From: Algoriphagus aquaeductus | GTDB taxonomy: Bacteria > Bacteroidota > Bacteroidia > Cytophagales > Cyclobacteriaceae | NCBI RefSeq assembly: GCF_003253485.1 | Contig: NZ_QKTX01000002.1 | Location: 248,001-312,000 of the forward strand | Direction of reading: 5' to 3' | DNA: 64,000 nt | Part shown: positions 12,211 to 18,485 of the stretch, piece after piece | Numbering within the stretch: the first letter of the stretch is position 1 | How the letters are laid out: every line of letters begins with the position of its first letter | Translations under genes and position numbers: made by a program | Notes under the pieces: generated by a model | Told to the model about the DNA's origin: nothing | What the model saw: the letters and a program-made list of their open reading frames with translations, nothing else | Databases searched by the model: none

Positions 12211-13413
12211 ATGAAAACTAAAGTAGGGGTTGGCTACAGCAATCAAACGGATTCTTTTGCAGCAGGGAAGGAGGCTACAGCGGCAGCCTTGGAAAACGGG
12301 GGCTTGGAAAAAGCAGATTTTGCATTGATTTTTTGTGGAGGCAAACATAATCCAAAAGAATTTTTAGAAGGAGTGAATTCATTGATTCCAACCTGTCAAA
12401 AAGCAGGTGGGACATCTTTTGGAATAATTACTGACTCATTTATTGGGTATGACGGGTTTGAAGTGGGGGTGACTCTATTCAGCTCTGAAAAAATCAAATT
12501 CACTGTCTTGGCACAGGGAAACTTAAATGAAAATGAATTTGTGGCCGGTGATGAACTCGGGAAAAAGATTGAATCTGCCGGAGTGGAAGATCTTCAGGCA
12601 CTTTGGGTATTTTATGATTCGAGTAAAAACCAAAGTCCTCCGATGCTTAATTTTGCCACGCCACTGTTTGCAGCCTTGGAACCTCATTTACCCAAGGGTC
12701 TTCCTTGTGCGGGAGGGGGATTTTTGGCAGATATGAGGCTCAGTCAATGTTACCAGTTTGTAGATGACAAAATCGTCTCTCAGCATGCCTTGGCCATTTT
12801 GATTTCAGGTGAATGTACCATGGAAACCACCATCCTTCATGGATGCCATCCCTGCAGTGATTACCTGACTGTTACCAAGGCCGAAGGTCCTGTTGTATTT
12901 GAAATTGACCATCGACCTGCAGTCGATGTCATTCATGAGCTTTTGGGAGGGAGTGAGGTTGTGGACATTAAGGATTTTGCCATGAACGTCACGCTAGGCA
13001 TAAATAGGGGAGAAAAGTTCGGTGAGTTTAAGGAGAGTGAATTCGCTAACCGGCTTACCCTGGCAGTGGACGAACCCAACAAAGCATTGGTCATGTTTGA
13101 GCCGGATCTGGTAGCCGGTTCAGAGGTTCAATTGATGCACCGAAATCTGGAGCCGGATTACCTGAATTCGGTAATCGACGGGGTAAAGGACATTATTCAT
13201 AAGTTGAACCCTGTTTTTTCACTGTATATTAATTGTGGAGGAAGAGCTCGTCCCTTTTCCGGAGTTAATTTTGAGGATGCTGAATCCGTACAGGACGCAG
13301 TGGGATCTGTTCCCTTGGCAGGATTTTATTCCGGAGTGGAAGTGGCCCGGGTAGGGGAGTTTTTGCAGCCCTTAGATTGGACGGGGGTATTGTGTTTCCT
13401 AGCTGAAAAATAA
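12211..13413 (+). CDS. FIST domain signal-sensing protein
   Basis: 400 residues built as FIST_N (about 20-200) followed by FIST_C (about 220-370). Typical segments are ALIFCGGKHNPKEFLEGVNS, CQKAGGTSFGIIT, LPCAGGGFLADM, and at the end YINCGGRARPF with GFYSGVEVARVG. There is no signal peptide or membrane segment, so it is cytoplasmic. FIST domains are proposed small-ligand (possibly amino-acid) sensors and usually accompany signalling output domains. Here the output appears to be the adenylate cyclase encoded 5 bp downstream. Possible promoter TAACTTTA at 12197-12204 leaves almost no leader. Confidence 0.88.
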   Translation: MKTKVGVGYSNQTDSFAAGKEATAAALENGGLEKADFALIFCGGKHNPKEFLEGVNSLIPTCQKAGGTSFGIITDSFIGYDGFEVGVTLFSSEKIKFTVLAQGNLNENEFVAGDELGKKIESAGVEDLQALWVFYDSSKNQSPPMLNFATPLFAALEPHLPKGLPCAGGGFLADMRLSQCYQFVDDKIVSQHALAILISGECTMETTILHGCHPCSDYLTVTKAEGPVVFEIDHRPAVDVIHELLGGSEVVDIKDFAMNVTLGINRGEKFGEFKESEFANRLTLAVDEPNKALVMFEPDLVAGSEVQLMHRNLEPDYLNSVIDGVKDIIHKLNPVFSLYINCGGRARPFSGVNFEDAESVQDAVGSVPLAGFYSGVEVARVGEFLQPLDWTGVLCFLAEK

Positions 13414-13418
13414 TCACG

Positions 13419-14741
13419 ATGTCCTCCTTGGAAGAGAAGCTTGTTCAGGCACAAAAAGAGATCGATTATTACAAAGGGAGATTGAAGCAGCTATCCACCT
13501 CCTATATGGCGCTTGAGTATAGGACGGCTGATCTTTCAAAGGATGTCCTTCAAATGACTGAGGGACTAAAAGTAATCGCCGAACTTCAGGATGTGGATGC
13601 GATGAGCGACGAGGATCAGCTGTTTGACAACCTTGCTGAAAGCATCAACATTCGTCTGAAAATGGATGTGGCAGCCATCCTCCTTCCTGTCAAAGAAAGG
13701 AAACTGGAGTTTGAGATGCGTTATCTGAAGGGATTTGGTAGCTACAATACCGAAGGCGTAAGGAAAAAAATCATTAAAGTTCCCGAAGAAGTTTATCAAA
13801 GCAAGGAGGCTGTCTTGTTCAATAAGACGGATGAAAAATCGGAGTTTGGAGCATATCTGTCCCAGGAGCTGGAAATTGAAAACCTGTTGTTTTCCCCAAT
13901 CATCCACAATAAAAATATCTTAGGATACTTTTTTGCCGGTAGGCGAACTCAGCTATTACAAAAAGGAAAGGGAATATTACCCTACCACCTCAATATTATG
14001 GATGCGATTGGCGGGGTGATTTCTACTGTTCAAAATCAGTTGGAAAGACAGCTTGTCCTCGAGCAACTGGTCAATGAGCGGACCAAAGAACTTCAAGAGG
14101 AAAAAGAGATCAGCGAAAATCTCCTATTGAATATTTTGCCATTTGAAACTACTCAGGAATTAAAAAAGAACGGTAAAGTAAAAGCCAAAGATTATAGCAT
14201 GGTAACTGTGCTTTTCACAGACTTCATAGACTTTACCAAATATAGCGAAGGCATGTCTCCCAAAGAGCTGGTAGAGCAGATTGACTTTTATTACCGGGAG
14301 ATGGATCATATTACCATGAAGCATGGCGTAGAGAAAATCAAAACTATAGGGGATAGTTACATGTGTGCGGCGGGATTGCCGGTAGAGCGGGATGATCATG
14401 CTGTGGCGGCCGTTCGGGCTGCTTTGGAGATTCGAGATTTTGTAGAACAGACCAAGGAAAGGAAAATGAAGACCGGGGAGCCCTATTTCGAGATTAGAAT
14501 AGGCCTCAATAGTGGTCCGATAGTAGCGGGTATCGTGGGGATCAAGAAATTTGCTTATGACATCTGGGGCGATACAGTCAATGTGGCGTCAAGGATGGAA
14601 TCAAGTGGGATTTCCGGGGAAGTTAATATCAGTCAATCCACTTATTTATTAGTCAAAGACCTTTTTCACTGTGAATACAGAGGACAGATACCTGTAAAAA
14701 ATAAGGGGGATATTGCCATGTACTTGGTAAATCCCAAATAA
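13419..14741 (+). CDS. Class III adenylate cyclase with coiled coil and GAF-like sensor
   Basis: 440 residues: N-terminal coiled coil (1-60), a GAF-like region (about 65-205), a second coiled linker (205-250), and a class III cyclase catalytic domain (about 258-440). Catalytic residues are complete: metal aspartates D268 (FTDFIDFT) and D312 (IGDSYM); purine-selecting K308 (EKIKTIGD) and D381 (YDIWGDTVN), which point to ATP rather than GTP; and transition-state N388 and R392 (VNVASR). The Gly usual in the first metal motif is replaced by Asp271. It is soluble, and being 5 bp behind the FIST gene it is probably cotranscribed and may be controlled by it. No dedicated cAMP receptor is seen nearby. 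Confidence 0.92.
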   Translation: MSSLEEKLVQAQKEIDYYKGRLKQLSTSYMALEYRTADLSKDVLQMTEGLKVIAELQDVDAMSDEDQLFDNLAESINIRLKMDVAAILLPVKERKLEFEMRYLKGFGSYNTEGVRKKIIKVPEEVYQSKEAVLFNKTDEKSEFGAYLSQELEIENLLFSPIIHNKNILGYFFAGRRTQLLQKGKGILPYHLNIMDAIGGVISTVQNQLERQLVLEQLVNERTKELQEEKEISENLLLNILPFETTQELKKNGKVKAKDYSMVTVLFTDFIDFTKYSEGMSPKELVEQIDFYYREMDHITMKHGVEKIKTIGDSYMCAAGLPVERDDHAVAAVRAALEIRDFVEQTKERKMKTGEPYFEIRIGLNSGPIVAGIVGIKKFAYDIWGDTVNVASRMESSGISGEVNISQSTYLLVKDLFHCEYRGQIPVKNKGDIAMYLVNPK

Positions 14742-14821: not shown

Positions 14822-16984
14822 ATGAGTCAATTCGATTTCCCAAGAATTAATTTTCATGGCAGTGTTTTGCTGGATGTACCCACAGGAAACAACAACAAGT
14901 TTGCCCCTTTGATAATTTACGATCAGGTGGACGCTTTGCCATATAACCCTCCAAGAGTATATATCACTGCAGAACAATTGCCAGCGGTCCAACAGCTTGG
15001 GTATGCCGTTTCTACGGATGATACCGGGCAGAATTATGTGGCGATTGAGGGCATCTCCAGGGAAAATTACGATCAGTGGGCAACCAGTCTCTTGGGTCGT
15101 TCCGGCTTGGATGATTGCTATATTCCGCTTTACAAGGAGATTCCCTTAAAAGGGGATGGGGCCCAGCCTTCGCTCTACGATGGATTGGTACAGCCGGGGT
15201 ATTGGAATTATTTCGGAGACCTCAGTGTCTTTGCTGAGGATATTCGGATCACCGGGATTCAGGTAGCAGATGGTCAGGGTGGTGTGATTACCTTTACTCA
15301 CGGAAATTCAGATGGGTGCCCGGCAGGTTTGGCCCAATTGCTCAATCAATCCTTTTCTTTCCATCAGCAATTTTTCGAACCCGGTTCCAGGACTACGGCC
15401 ATGCTTTGTGACATAGACAGTGTGGGTGACACCTGTACCCAAATGTTTTGTTCTTTGGCAGGGATCTATGGAAATTCTCTAGGACAAGAAAAGACCTATT
15501 TCACTGGAGTGCCCTGTAAGTCCACCTTCAATTGGTTGTCTTTTTCCAAAGTGCTCAATTGGAATAACCCACTTCTGTCTCCCATGTCAGGAGGAACCTA
15601 CTTCAACTCTACCCTTGCGCTAAATTCCGATCAAACCGACCCCTTATTCCAGCAAGACTTAAATCAGGAAGCCGGATTTTCGGTTGATGCGCTTTCTATG
15701 AAAATCCTCATCCATCAGGTCTATGAGGTCAGAAATCCCCTTTACGACAAAATGCCTACTGCTCCCTTGGGAAATAATCAGACCTCGGTACCAAAGAATC
15801 CAGCTCGGGTGGCATTTTCCGGTTCTTTATGTCCTTTTGTCGAAGGTACAGACATGAAGACGACCAATATTGCCAGAATCCTCAAAAATGGAATTGCAGC
15901 AAATCCTACCCTGGACCTGAGCGGAATCGTGACTCCTACGCCAATGGGACAAAACCAAACCCCGCTATCAGTCCCGTCCACGGTTCAGCTTGCTCCGGCG
16001 TTTTTAAAGGTAAATTATCAAAAGAAAGTGATCAGCCTGGATGTGTTAAACACAATTTGCGAATATGGTGTAGGACTTGGTGATTACAGCAAATATGGAG
16101 GTCCATCCTCTATTCCTCCATTCTTGGGTTTTGAAAATTATGATTTTGGACCACTCTCCCTAAATTTCCTTCCGGACGATCAATCGCCCTCAACCGTAAT
16201 TGGCACATTTGACCATGCCAAAGATTACAATATGGCTGTATTTTTAGCCCGAGGAGGTGTCATGGACTTCCCCATTCCCCCCGGAATACCGGATTTCTCA
16301 AAAGGTAAATTCGAGATTTATCGTAATGGGCAACCTCTTCTGATCGAAGATGATTATTTGATCCAGTCGGACCAGCAAGGATCATATGCTGAGCAAAATC
16401 AATCTGCTTCCGATGGATACAAATCTGATGGACCGGGAAGGGGACCAGTCATTTTGAGGTGCTTTTATCGAGGCAATCCAGTGACTGCACCGGTGGCCGG
16501 GAAAATCCGAAACGGAGCAACGAATGCTTTGGAGGATTTTAGTTTTTATGATGGGGTAACATTTGAATACGACACCCAAAAAGCGGGGTGCTTTCAATAT
16601 GTATTAGGAATTAATCCTGCCCAGTATTTTACACCCACCAATAAGGCAGAAGTATTTTATTTGATAGCCAATGGATATACCGTGACCACCCGAGTATTGG
16701 CGGCCGCTCCAGAACTCGAGGTTTACCTGAATGGCTCAGTTCCCTTGACCTGGCAGGTACTGTATGAAAACATTTTGTCCAATTATCACAGTGTTTTGCC
16801 CATTATGAATGCGATCCTCCCATTCAATGAAGCGGTTTGGAGTGAGCCCTATACTATGCGCAGAATGCTGATGCTGACCGATAGCAAAAACTGGGGAGGA
16901 TATATGTATATGCCAGTAACCCGGGAATTGTCCAAAAACCAACAGGCCCTGCTTCAAATGTGGGCCAAGCAAAAAATGGGTTAA
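14822..16984 (+). CDS. VioB/RebD N-terminal-domain-like protein without the ferritin-like domain
   Basis: 720 residues, no signal peptide. The start FDFPRINFHGSVLLDVPTG resembles VioB (DFPRIHFRG) and RebD (DLPRLHFAG), the bisindole-forming iminophenyl-pyruvate dimer/chromopyrrolate synthases. Further matches from memory: DDYLIQSD near residue 505 with VILRCFYRGNP, and the end RRMLMLTD ... YMYMPVTRELSKNQQALL, which corresponds to the VioB segment RLMWQM ... YYMPSTRELS. In VioB the ferritin-like domain follows that point; here the protein stops. So it corresponds to roughly the first 600 residues of VioB alone, and enzyme activity cannot be assumed. No violacein- or rebeccamycin-type genes are adjacent. 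The following kelch-like gene begins within 20 bp. Confidence 0.68.
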   Translation: MSQFDFPRINFHGSVLLDVPTGNNNKFAPLIIYDQVDALPYNPPRVYITAEQLPAVQQLGYAVSTDDTGQNYVAIEGISRENYDQWATSLLGRSGLDDCYIPLYKEIPLKGDGAQPSLYDGLVQPGYWNYFGDLSVFAEDIRITGIQVADGQGGVITFTHGNSDGCPAGLAQLLNQSFSFHQQFFEPGSRTTAMLCDIDSVGDTCTQMFCSLAGIYGNSLGQEKTYFTGVPCKSTFNWLSFSKVLNWNNPLLSPMSGGTYFNSTLALNSDQTDPLFQQDLNQEAGFSVDALSMKILIHQVYEVRNPLYDKMPTAPLGNNQTSVPKNPARVAFSGSLCPFVEGTDMKTTNIARILKNGIAANPTLDLSGIVTPTPMGQNQTPLSVPSTVQLAPAFLKVNYQKKVISLDVLNTICEYGVGLGDYSKYGGPSSIPPFLGFENYDFGPLSLNFLPDDQSPSTVIGTFDHAKDYNMAVFLARGGVMDFPIPPGIPDFSKGKFEIYRNGQPLLIEDDYLIQSDQQGSYAEQNQSASDGYKSDGPGRGPVILRCFYRGNPVTAPVAGKIRNGATNALEDFSFYDGVTFEYDTQKAGCFQYVLGINPAQYFTPTNKAEVFYLIANGYTVTTRVLAAAPELEVYLNGSVPLTWQVLYENILSNYHSVLPIMNAILPFNEAVWSEPYTMRRMLMLTDSKNWGGYMYMPVTRELSKNQQALLQMWAKQKMG

Positions 16985-17003
16985 GATGCCAACTCTCACA
17001 AAC

Positions 17004-18485
17004 ATGAAAAATTCAACATTGGTCCTATTAGGCTGTTCCATAAGCTTGCTGCTGAATCAATTTTGCTCTTCTCCCAAAGAGAAAAACACTGCGACAATAG
17101 AAAAAGATGCCTTGATGGCTTCCCCTTTGGTGAAACGGGTCCAACAGCTCTTTGAGACTGGTGGTGGGGACAGTACCCTACAGGATTTTATTCAGGTCAA
17201 CTTGGAACCTATAGATCCCGGGTTTAAGATTCCTGCTCTTCAAAGTCCGGTTTTTGCCACCTATGGCAATCAGTGGGTCTTCTTTGGAGGCAGAAAATCA
17301 GGGCTGCACAACATGAACAATGATCCGCCCGCTTTTCCTAACCTGCTGGCAAACGATTCTATTTGGGTGGTTGATTTAATCCAGAAAACTGCGGTGGGGG
17401 TGCCATTGCCCAAAGCGTATTTTACCTACCTGAGTGGAAGTAGCATGCTCCACTTCCAAGATGGGGAGACGCTGTATGCTTCCGGAGGCTATACCTCTTT
17501 GGATAATTCTAAAGTCAGCAACTGGACTTCAGACTCCTTTTTCGAAATCAATATTCCCAATCTCATCCTTTACGTGACTTCCGGAGGCACCAGCCCAAGT
17601 TTGGAACAGGTTTTTACCAAGGTGATCAGCGATCCATTTCTGCAGGTCACTGGGGGTGAAATGATGGTTGTAAATGGAAATTTCTATCTCATAGGGGGGC
17701 AAAATTATAAAGGCGCATACCTTCCAGGAAATAATGGGGCTTACACTTCTGCTATTCGTAAATTCTCTCTCAAATCAGAGGGGAATGGCTGGATGCTCAC
17801 CGATACGCTCTCTATAATTGACTCTGTCAAACTTCACCGAAGAGATTATACCCTGGCCAGAGTCATCACCGCTGACACGGATTCTATGGGGGCGGTTATC
17901 TATGGCGGGGTTTTTAACAGACAAGGTCTTGGATACCGTGCGCCGGTTTACCTCAATGGTCTCGGATCAGGAAATCCAACCGTCACCATGGATCAAGAGA
18001 CCTTGCAAAAAGTAAATTTATATTCAGCCGCCCAAATCGATGCTGTTTTAGCTTTTGGTCAATATCGAGTGAGCCGGGTATCTATCTTGGGAGGAATCAC
18101 TTACATGAGTTATGATTCCAACTCAGGAGGATTGATAGTCCCGGAGATTCCTCTTCCTTTTTCCAATTTGATATCGTCTTATTATACTAATGGACAAGGG
18201 GAAACCATCGAAATGGTACAGACTCCGCCAAATCCCATGATGCCAGGCTTTTTGGGTACAAACGCCCTGTTTTTTCCTTTGGAAAACTTGCGGTATGGAG
18301 ACTCGGACACCATCATTGATTTGAACAAAGTTTTCCCTGATGGTACTCAAGGGCCGGTATTGGTAGGCTATATGTATGGGGGGATTTCTTCTCCCGTGGC
18401 CAATCCCATGTCTGGAATGCAGAATTACAATACAAAAGTGAATAATACTCTTTTCGGAGTGTATATGACCTTGGGGTTGGAATAG
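17004..18485 (+). CDS. Kelch-like secreted (lipo)protein
   Basis: The start was chosen at the ATG at 17004 rather than 16986, because it gives a signal sequence (MKNSTLVLLGC, then a longer hydrophobic run to about residue 22). Cys11 in LLGC could be a lipobox, although the preceding hydrophobic run is short; QFC at residue 21 is a weaker candidate. The mature protein (about 470 residues) has spaced Gly-Gly blades of a kelch-type propeller: VFFGGRKSGL, LYASGGYTSLDNS, FYLIGGQNYKG and GAVIYGGVFNRQGLG. Probably an envelope beta-propeller. It follows the VioB-like gene with almost no gap, so the two are likely coexpressed. Function unknown. Confidence 0.65.
   Translation: MKNSTLVLLGCSISLLLNQFCSSPKEKNTATIEKDALMASPLVKRVQQLFETGGGDSTLQDFIQVNLEPIDPGFKIPALQSPVFATYGNQWVFFGGRKSGLHNMNNDPPAFPNLLANDSIWVVDLIQKTAVGVPLPKAYFTYLSGSSMLHFQDGETLYASGGYTSLDNSKVSNWTSDSFFEINIPNLILYVTSGGTSPSLEQVFTKVISDPFLQVTGGEMMVVNGNFYLIGGQNYKGAYLPGNNGAYTSAIRKFSLKSEGNGWMLTDTLSIIDSVKLHRRDYTLARVITADTDSMGAVIYGGVFNRQGLGYRAPVYLNGLGSGNPTVTMDQETLQKVNLYSAAQIDAVLAFGQYRVSRVSILGGITYMSYDSNSGGLIVPEIPLPFSNLISSYYTNGQGETIEMVQTPPNPMMPGFLGTNALFFPLENLRYGDSDTIIDLNKVFPDGTQGPVLVGYMYGGISSPVANPMSGMQNYNTKVNNTLFGVYMTLGLE

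Follow-up and report, generated by a model that had tools for sequence, protein, structure and literature searches.

The window (the whole 64,000-nucleotide stretch of DNA that we analyzed) comes from a 4.9-Mb genome (G000) and contains, on one strand, an operon coding for a FIST protein, a class III cyclase, a protein that we call VN, and a Kelch-like lipoprotein, with gaps of 5, 80, and 1 bases between successive genes. VN is thus the product of the third gene of a four-gene operon that, as set out below, is conserved. The genes, and the features of VN that we refer to, are as follows.

12211..13413, + strand: sensor-type protein of 400 aa with FIST N and FIST C, encoded by the operon's first gene (PF08495 E 1e-26, PF10442 E 8e-16)
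13419..14741, + strand: class III cyclase of 440 aa whose N-terminal part is GAF-like (PF00211 E 5.3e-54; GAF below cut-off)
14822..16984, + strand: VN, type 1, stand-alone VioB/RebD N-terminal-type protein, 720 aa (open reading frame from ATG to stop)
14831..14893, + strand: N-terminal signature FDFPRINFHGSVLLDVPTGNN, VN residues 4-24 (41-protein alignment)
16343..16954, + strand: stretch matched by TIGR04492, VN residues 508-711 (model positions 394-575 of 1003)
16346..16396, + strand: EDDYLIQSDQQGSYAEQ, VN residues 509-525 (Glu-509 invariant in 41/41)
16907..16933, + strand: YMPVTRELS, VN residues 696-704 (Met-697 and Arg-701 invariant in 41/41)
16986..18485, + strand: Kelch-like protein of 499 aa; an N-terminal signal and a lipobox-like Cys are seen by eye (assigned by homology)

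FIST in NosP senses NO through heme, and NosP is encoded beside its signaling partner (PMC12570481). The window protein resembles NosP-type sensors in being a single-domain FIST encoded beside a signaling enzyme but differs from them in that the partner is a class III cyclase rather than a histidine kinase, and it scores 30.2 bits against the NosP model (NF041558), well under the cut-off of 450. The cyclase has the features of a class III adenylate cyclase, namely a PF00211 domain with the catalytic Asp, the Asn/Arg pair, and K and D residues of the ATP type, in the motifs LFTDF, KIKTIGDSYM, and YDIWGDTVNVASR. Because we take the K and D in KIKTIGDSYM and YDIWGD to be the residues that specify ATP, cAMP is the likely product. 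The window copy of the Kelch-like protein reaches no Pfam model, and its orthologue in a metagenome-assembled genome (MAG; L007) passes Kelch_1. With respect to expression signals, no instance of the Bacteroidota-type promoter pattern was found in the window, shuffled sequences contained at least as many sigma-70 and terminator-like sites as the surroundings of the operon, and an Rfam scan gave no match.

The order FIST-cyclase-VN-Kelch is identical in 10 genus genomes and the MAG, which is titled Flavobacteriaceae and whose proteins are 49-51% identical. We refer to the VN of this operon as type 1; it was found in 10/72 genus genomes, and close orthologues of the FIST protein (at least 67% identity) and of the Kelch-like protein (at least 53%) occur in exactly the same 10. 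The chance of this overlap would be 1.9e-12 if the genomes were independent, which relatives within a genus are not.

VioB/RebD-type enzymes build the purple pigment violacein and indolocarbazole scaffolds. The first-pass annotation had described the third gene product as a stand-alone VioB/RebD N-terminal domain, on the strength of a DFPRIxFxG-type start, a QSD ... FYRG pair in the middle, and a YMPxTRELS motif just before the end, and had proposed a profile comparison. All three motifs are present: FDFPRINFHG at residues 4-13, QSD at 515-517 with FYRG at 548-551, and YMPVTRELS at 696-704 of 720, close to where the ferritin-like half of VioB would begin, with the protein stopping soon after. 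Further, the NCBIfam VioB model (TIGR04492) matched residues 508-711 with an E value of 7.6e-8 (model positions 394-575). As this single-sequence match is weak, with 30.6 bits for a curated VioB cut-off of 1250, we regard VN as a VioB homologue and not as VioB. No Pfam model matched VN, and a phmmer search with VN against the PDB gave no matches.

For a comparison at the profile level, we used an alignment of 17 stand-alone VN relatives (A3), a profile of two further VN types, 3 and 4 (A5), and three fused VioB/RebD-like proteins from plasmids of Pseudonocardia, Streptomyces clavuligerus, and Nocardiopsis, the gene of each of which is directly preceded by an FAD oxidoreductase gene (L069-L071). 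The A3 profile detected the three fused proteins in hmmsearch with E values of 5.1e-20, 1.4e-19, and 1.5e-19, most of the score coming from the C-terminal part of the domain (N-terminal pieces alone score little), and 0/60 shuffled controls were reported at E <= 10. In hhalign, A3 columns 25-737 aligned with positions 1-666 of the 1103 of the fused set (probability 99.9, E 3.6e-31, 585 columns), A5 aligned with the fused set over 580 columns (probability 99.6) and with A3 at a probability of 99.9, and two unrelated neighbor families used as negative controls gave 0.1-0.7%. TIGR04492 was matched at E <= 0.05 by 17/17 members of A3, by 0/4 type-3 proteins tested, and by 2/4 type-4 proteins in the same run, plus three further type-4 proteins. 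When 680 open reading frames of at least 200 aa from all collected loci were scanned, two VN profiles matched 69 (43 distinct) at E <= 1e-3, all of them VN or the three fused genes, although many of these matches had themselves built the profiles. The similarity to the N half of VioB was thereby confirmed, and we conclude that VN belongs, by its sequence relationships, to the VioB/RebD/StaD N-terminal-domain family as a stand-alone protein, homologous over its length. It shares with VioB and with the chromopyrrolic acid (CPA) synthases RebD and StaD a colinear N half and the N-terminal and YMPxxR(E/D) signatures but differs from them in having no ferritin-like half and in that its gene lies in a cyclase operon rather than in a pigment cluster; a Pfam scan of eight window proteins revealed no FAD amino-acid or tryptophan oxidase.

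We aligned 41 proteins (38 stand-alone and 3 fused) to identify conserved residues in the domain. Apart from the start Met, all 41 have the same residue at ten positions, four of them in the N-terminal signature (Arg-8, Phe-11, Gly-13, and Thr-21) and the others at Gly-132, Gly-334, Arg-352, Glu-509, Met-697, and Arg-701, and no His or Cys that would hint at a cofactor or a chemistry is invariant among the 41. The same core is found in the cyclase-linked, fused, and ferritin-paired members, which indicates that it is not degenerate. The VN gene family is under purifying selection: dN/dS was 0.05-0.10 in the 3/15 pairs with dS <1, none of which includes the window copy, whose pairs are saturated; the 12 pairs with dS >=1.9 or not computable were left out of this range. 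VN as a pseudogene is contradicted by these selection and conservation data and was rejected. Structure prediction with AlphaFold, from 5-row alignments, gave a mean pLDDT of 43.7 for the whole of VN and of 46.3 for residues 391-720, both too poor to use.

The first-pass annotation further held that the protein stops at the ferritin boundary, and this is what we observed. All type-1 proteins (11/11) end soon after YMPVTRELS, the next gene is the Kelch-like one after a gap of a single base, and a six-frame search of G000 with PF12902, the ferritin family of VioB, gave no match at E <= 0.01; an in-frame ferritin-like domain overlooked through a sequencing error is therefore ruled out. The earlier annotation had proposed to look for a separate ferritin-like protein in the genome, and the same six-frame search leaves G000 without one of the VioB type. 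The searches of G000 covered PF12902 and a different ferritin-like family, PF13668, of which there is a tandem pair (L083, L084) on another contig, C4:105890-107039, with no visible link to VN. Within the genus, PF12902 occurs at 17 places in 14/72 genomes, but in 0/10 of those with a type-1 VN, an absence that, by itself, is no more than suggestive (P 0.10, or 0.03 relative to the 50 near-complete genomes).

We note that VN is linked to a cyclase and a Kelch protein in two parallel operons as well. First, a type-2 operon in 3 genomes has the order BBE-like FAD oxidase, 7TMR-DISM cyclase, VN (27% identical to the window protein), and Kelch; the oxidase of L025 matches PF01565 (E 1.3e-25) and PF08031 (E 3.4e-13), and the other two oxidase genes are 80-81% identical to it. 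Second, a type-3 operon in 12 genomes consists of a kinase/AAA/GAF/cyclase protein of ~1700 aa, VN, and a Kelch lipoprotein. Pfam was run on one cyclase per type, and the remaining cyclases were assigned by similarity. Two of the type-3 sets are imperfect, with the cyclase cut by a contig end in L081 and, in L082, with a cyclase frame that ends early and a Kelch gene in two frames. Together with the 11 type-1 operons (including the MAG), these make 26 cyclase-VN-Kelch triads. Conversely, Kelch relatives occur at 28 places in the genus, 25 of them in triads; the others include two distant ones, in G647 and G598 (E 4e-7 to 2e-9), where no VN lies within the 18-19 kb read, and one on contig 49 of G587, whose neighborhood falls outside those read. 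As the type-3 loci were found through the Kelch gene, they are no independent test of the linkage between VN and Kelch. The Kelch proteins of types 1 and 3 have, by eye, a lipoprotein-like signal, which those of type 2 lack; no signal sequence was seen by eye in VN, so that, in types 1 and 3, the two products may be in separate compartments.

The distribution of VN is patchy, with types 1-3 in 23/72 genus genomes. Beyond the genus, profiles A2 and A5 each matched 5 genomes in samples of 395 Bacteroidota genomes, 6 different ones in all, which indicates that the family is rare; such counts are lower bounds, because the profiles miss distant types (A1 missed type 3 in the genus). In one genome of the same class (G258), a 7TMR-DISM cyclase gene overlaps VN, and there is no Kelch relative within the 20 kb read; in one of the same order (G380), the signaling gene near VN codes for a 7TMR-DISM histidine kinase rather than a cyclase, and the two are separated by a gene on the opposite strand. 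An opposite-strand family of 321-375 aa adjoins VN in two distant Bacteroidota (L029:11090-12169; L030:6637-8732), with no Pfam match in the 2/3 scanned, and the proteins encoded opposite to VN in G258 and G380, considered as hidden relatives of VN or PF12902, showed no similarity. We also considered a phage or plasmid origin of VN and rejected it; window VN has no protein relatives in phage records, A3 has none in viral contigs, and a plasmid search with window VN finds only Gloeothece.

A fourth type of VN is found beside a separate PF12902-type gene in 8/8 plasmid records and in G357. The hosts of this pair are plasmids of Gloeothece, Azospirillum, Mycetohabitans, and Aureibacter, eight genus genomes, and G357. 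The split pair resembles the window locus in having a stand-alone VN gene of the same family but differs from type 1 in that a PF12902-type gene adjoins VN at every locus read, and none of the nine Bacteroidota genome loci compared has a cyclase or Kelch relative. Of the 17 places with PF12902 in the genus, 8 are beside VN and compact, 7 are in FIST-cyclase loci, 1 is fused (G644), and 1 is beside neither (G624 C159). In the fused case, FAD-oxidoreductase-like and Rieske-like parts are joined to a region that matches the VioB ferritin half, in a protein of 1036 aa (L064:8326-11436).

Several further observations concern the surroundings of type 4. The ferritin-like gene is longer (507 aa) in L062:8869-10392 and L063:8425-9948 and seems by eye to be fused to a glyoxalase/VOC-like protein, which elsewhere is a small separate gene after the ferritin-like one. 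Genes of the ebo type adjoin the pair in L037, L039, and L008:1438-7756; the set annotated in Aureibacter comprises EboA, TatD, a UbiA-like EboC, 3-dehydroquinate synthase, and EboE, and those of Mycetohabitans and Gloeothece are partial. The ebo cluster is linked to export of a scytonemin precursor (PMC6282210). On the Mycetohabitans megaplasmid (L039:1-2559), genes for a LodA/GoxA-type oxidase and a tryptophan 7-halogenase lie a few kb upstream of the VN-ferritin pair, and a 2015 survey places PF12902 genes near fungal lodA-like genes (PMC4417212). The Gloeothece plasmid encodes a second stand-alone VN (667 aa) after a 457-aa open reading frame with a signal-like start and one CxxCH (L008:8376-11821).

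The most unexpected result came from the FIST-cyclase loci with PF12902. In six loci (L045-L047, L050-L052), and in part in L068, where the contig ends within the FIST gene and no cyclase is visible, a FIST (33-35% identity) and a cyclase (36-38%) homologous to the window pair, and in the same order, are accompanied by a ~566-aa PF12902 protein. This protein matches positions 605-750 of the VioB model (E 3.8e-16 for L046) and the C-terminal half of the fused set (hhalign 98.6%); these loci thus carry a homologue of the C-terminal half of VioB instead of the N-terminal half. The PF12902 gene and the FIST gene point away from each other and flank a conserved OsmC-like gene. The PF12902 gene is also adjoined by a gene for a 344-aa protein, which had no Pfam match in the one tested and which, considered as a hidden VN relative, showed no similarity. 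Homologous FIST-cyclase pairs are therefore linked to the N half of VioB in 10 genomes and to the C half in six others, and no genome in the genus has both arrangements.

In a tree of the 41 proteins with a midpoint root, each VN type forms one group. One side holds types 1 and 2 together with the VN of G258 and G380, the 667-aa protein of Gloeothece, and the fused proteins, and the other holds types 3 and 4, so that cyclase-linked and ferritin-linked forms occur on both sides. The cyclase link is accordingly not one simple lineage, since type 3 groups with the ferritin-paired type 4, although the deep order of the tree is unsure given the long branches and midpoint root.

What might VN do in such operons? 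The reading that we favor, tentatively and at somewhat less than even confidence, is that VN is a cytoplasmic metabolite-handling component of a cAMP-signaling operon that works without the ferritin-like half and is not a bisindole synthase, as that half is missing and no tryptophan oxidase was seen among the neighbors. We infer that the four products would act together, with cAMP as the second messenger. The FIST protein would sense a small ligand and act on the soluble class III adenylate cyclase, the FIST protein and the GAF-like part of the cyclase would together control cAMP, VN in the cytoplasm would bind, and perhaps convert, a metabolite that is probably aromatic or derived from an amino acid, and the Kelch lipoprotein would act on the outer side of the membrane. 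Against this reading stand G380, with a histidine kinase instead of a cyclase, G258, without a Kelch relative in 20 kb, the possible separation of VN and Kelch by compartment, the grouping of type 3 with type 4 in the tree, and the lack of an invariant His or Cys. In a more general form, which we consider possible but on balance doubtful, the VioB/RebD N domain would be an independent metabolite-handling module with two wirings, one with a ferritin partner (as an enzyme) and one with a cyclase and Kelch (as a cAMP-coupled sensor or effector).

Among the alternatives, we rate as rather unlikely that VN is a complete enzyme making a dimeric or cyclized aromatic product under cAMP control, for which the ferritin-like half would be dispensable or replaced by another oxidase, e.g. 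the BBE-like FAD oxidase of type 2. The invariant core argues for this, as does the presence of that oxidase at the start of the type-2 operon; the four-gene type-1 operon, by contrast, has no oxidase, and VN has no conserved His or Cys for a cofactor. In passages of two papers, VioB is said to use heme b and to have catalase activity, with no crystal structure available for it in 2021 (PMC9705886), CPA synthase is called heme-containing (PMC10851217), and coupling of indole-3-pyruvate imine is given, beside heme and catalase, as a trait of these enzymes; we found neither the heme nor the coupling site assigned there to one half of VioB.

That VN is one part of a split VioB, which pairs in trans with another ferritin-superfamily protein encoded elsewhere, appears improbable to us. 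Type 4 provides a precedent, with a PF12902-type gene adjoining VN in the plasmid records and G357 and with the 8 compact genus genes, and G000 has the tandem PF13668 pair. However, PF12902 itself is absent from G000 and from all 10 type-1 genomes, and PF13668 is a different family on another contig.

More improbable still is a Pycsar-like defense system, in which the cyclase would make a cyclic nucleotide upon phage infection and VN or Kelch would be the effector. PADLOC models for PycC matched the cyclases of the window (E 4.3e-13) and of type 2 (E 1.3e-15), the type-3 cyclase matched PD-T4-6 with its kinase part (E 2.6e-44) and PycC with its cyclase part (E 7.6e-14), and the patchy distribution of types 1-3 would also suit defense. 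Cyclase and kinase domains of the PycC and PD-T4-6 types are, however, frequent outside defense, the window cyclase has the K and D that we read as specifying ATP, and no relatives were found in phage records (window VN) or viral contigs (A3). Nor did VN, FIST, Kelch, the BBE-like oxidase, or the PF12902 protein have a PADLOC match at E <= 0.01. Finally, a decaying VioB remnant is hardly credible, for although VN lacks a domain present in its characterized relatives, it is a full-length open frame in 10 genus genomes and one MAG, with low dN/dS in the unsaturated pairs and a conserved operon.

Overall, we conclude from homology and gene linkage that VN represents half of a known enzyme placed in what appears to be a signaling operon. 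The first-pass annotation had called the role of the domain without its ferritin-like partner undescribed, and among the matches listed in the open-licence literature we likewise found neither a VioB N domain occurring by itself nor a FIST-cyclase-VN-Kelch operon described. Across Bacteroidota, Cyanobacteria, and Proteobacteria, the two parts of a pigment enzyme are employed both separately and together, phyla other than Bacteroidota having been sampled through plasmid records. As VN is intact and under selection, it lets the N half of VioB/RebD be studied alone. The fold of this half has no solved relative that we found (a full-length RebD-like protein and both VN profiles gave nothing below E 0.06 against the PDB), whereas the ferritin-like half has one, 3hl1. 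The repeated link to a cyclase, in three sensor architectures, leads to the new hypothesis that the domain binds a metabolite and takes part in signaling. If the reading with two wirings were true, the pairing with cyclase and Kelch would be a cAMP-coupled system not previously described, and the bisindole synthases would represent one case in which two parts are fused that in Bacteroidota are also connected, each on its own, with homologous FIST-cyclase modules.
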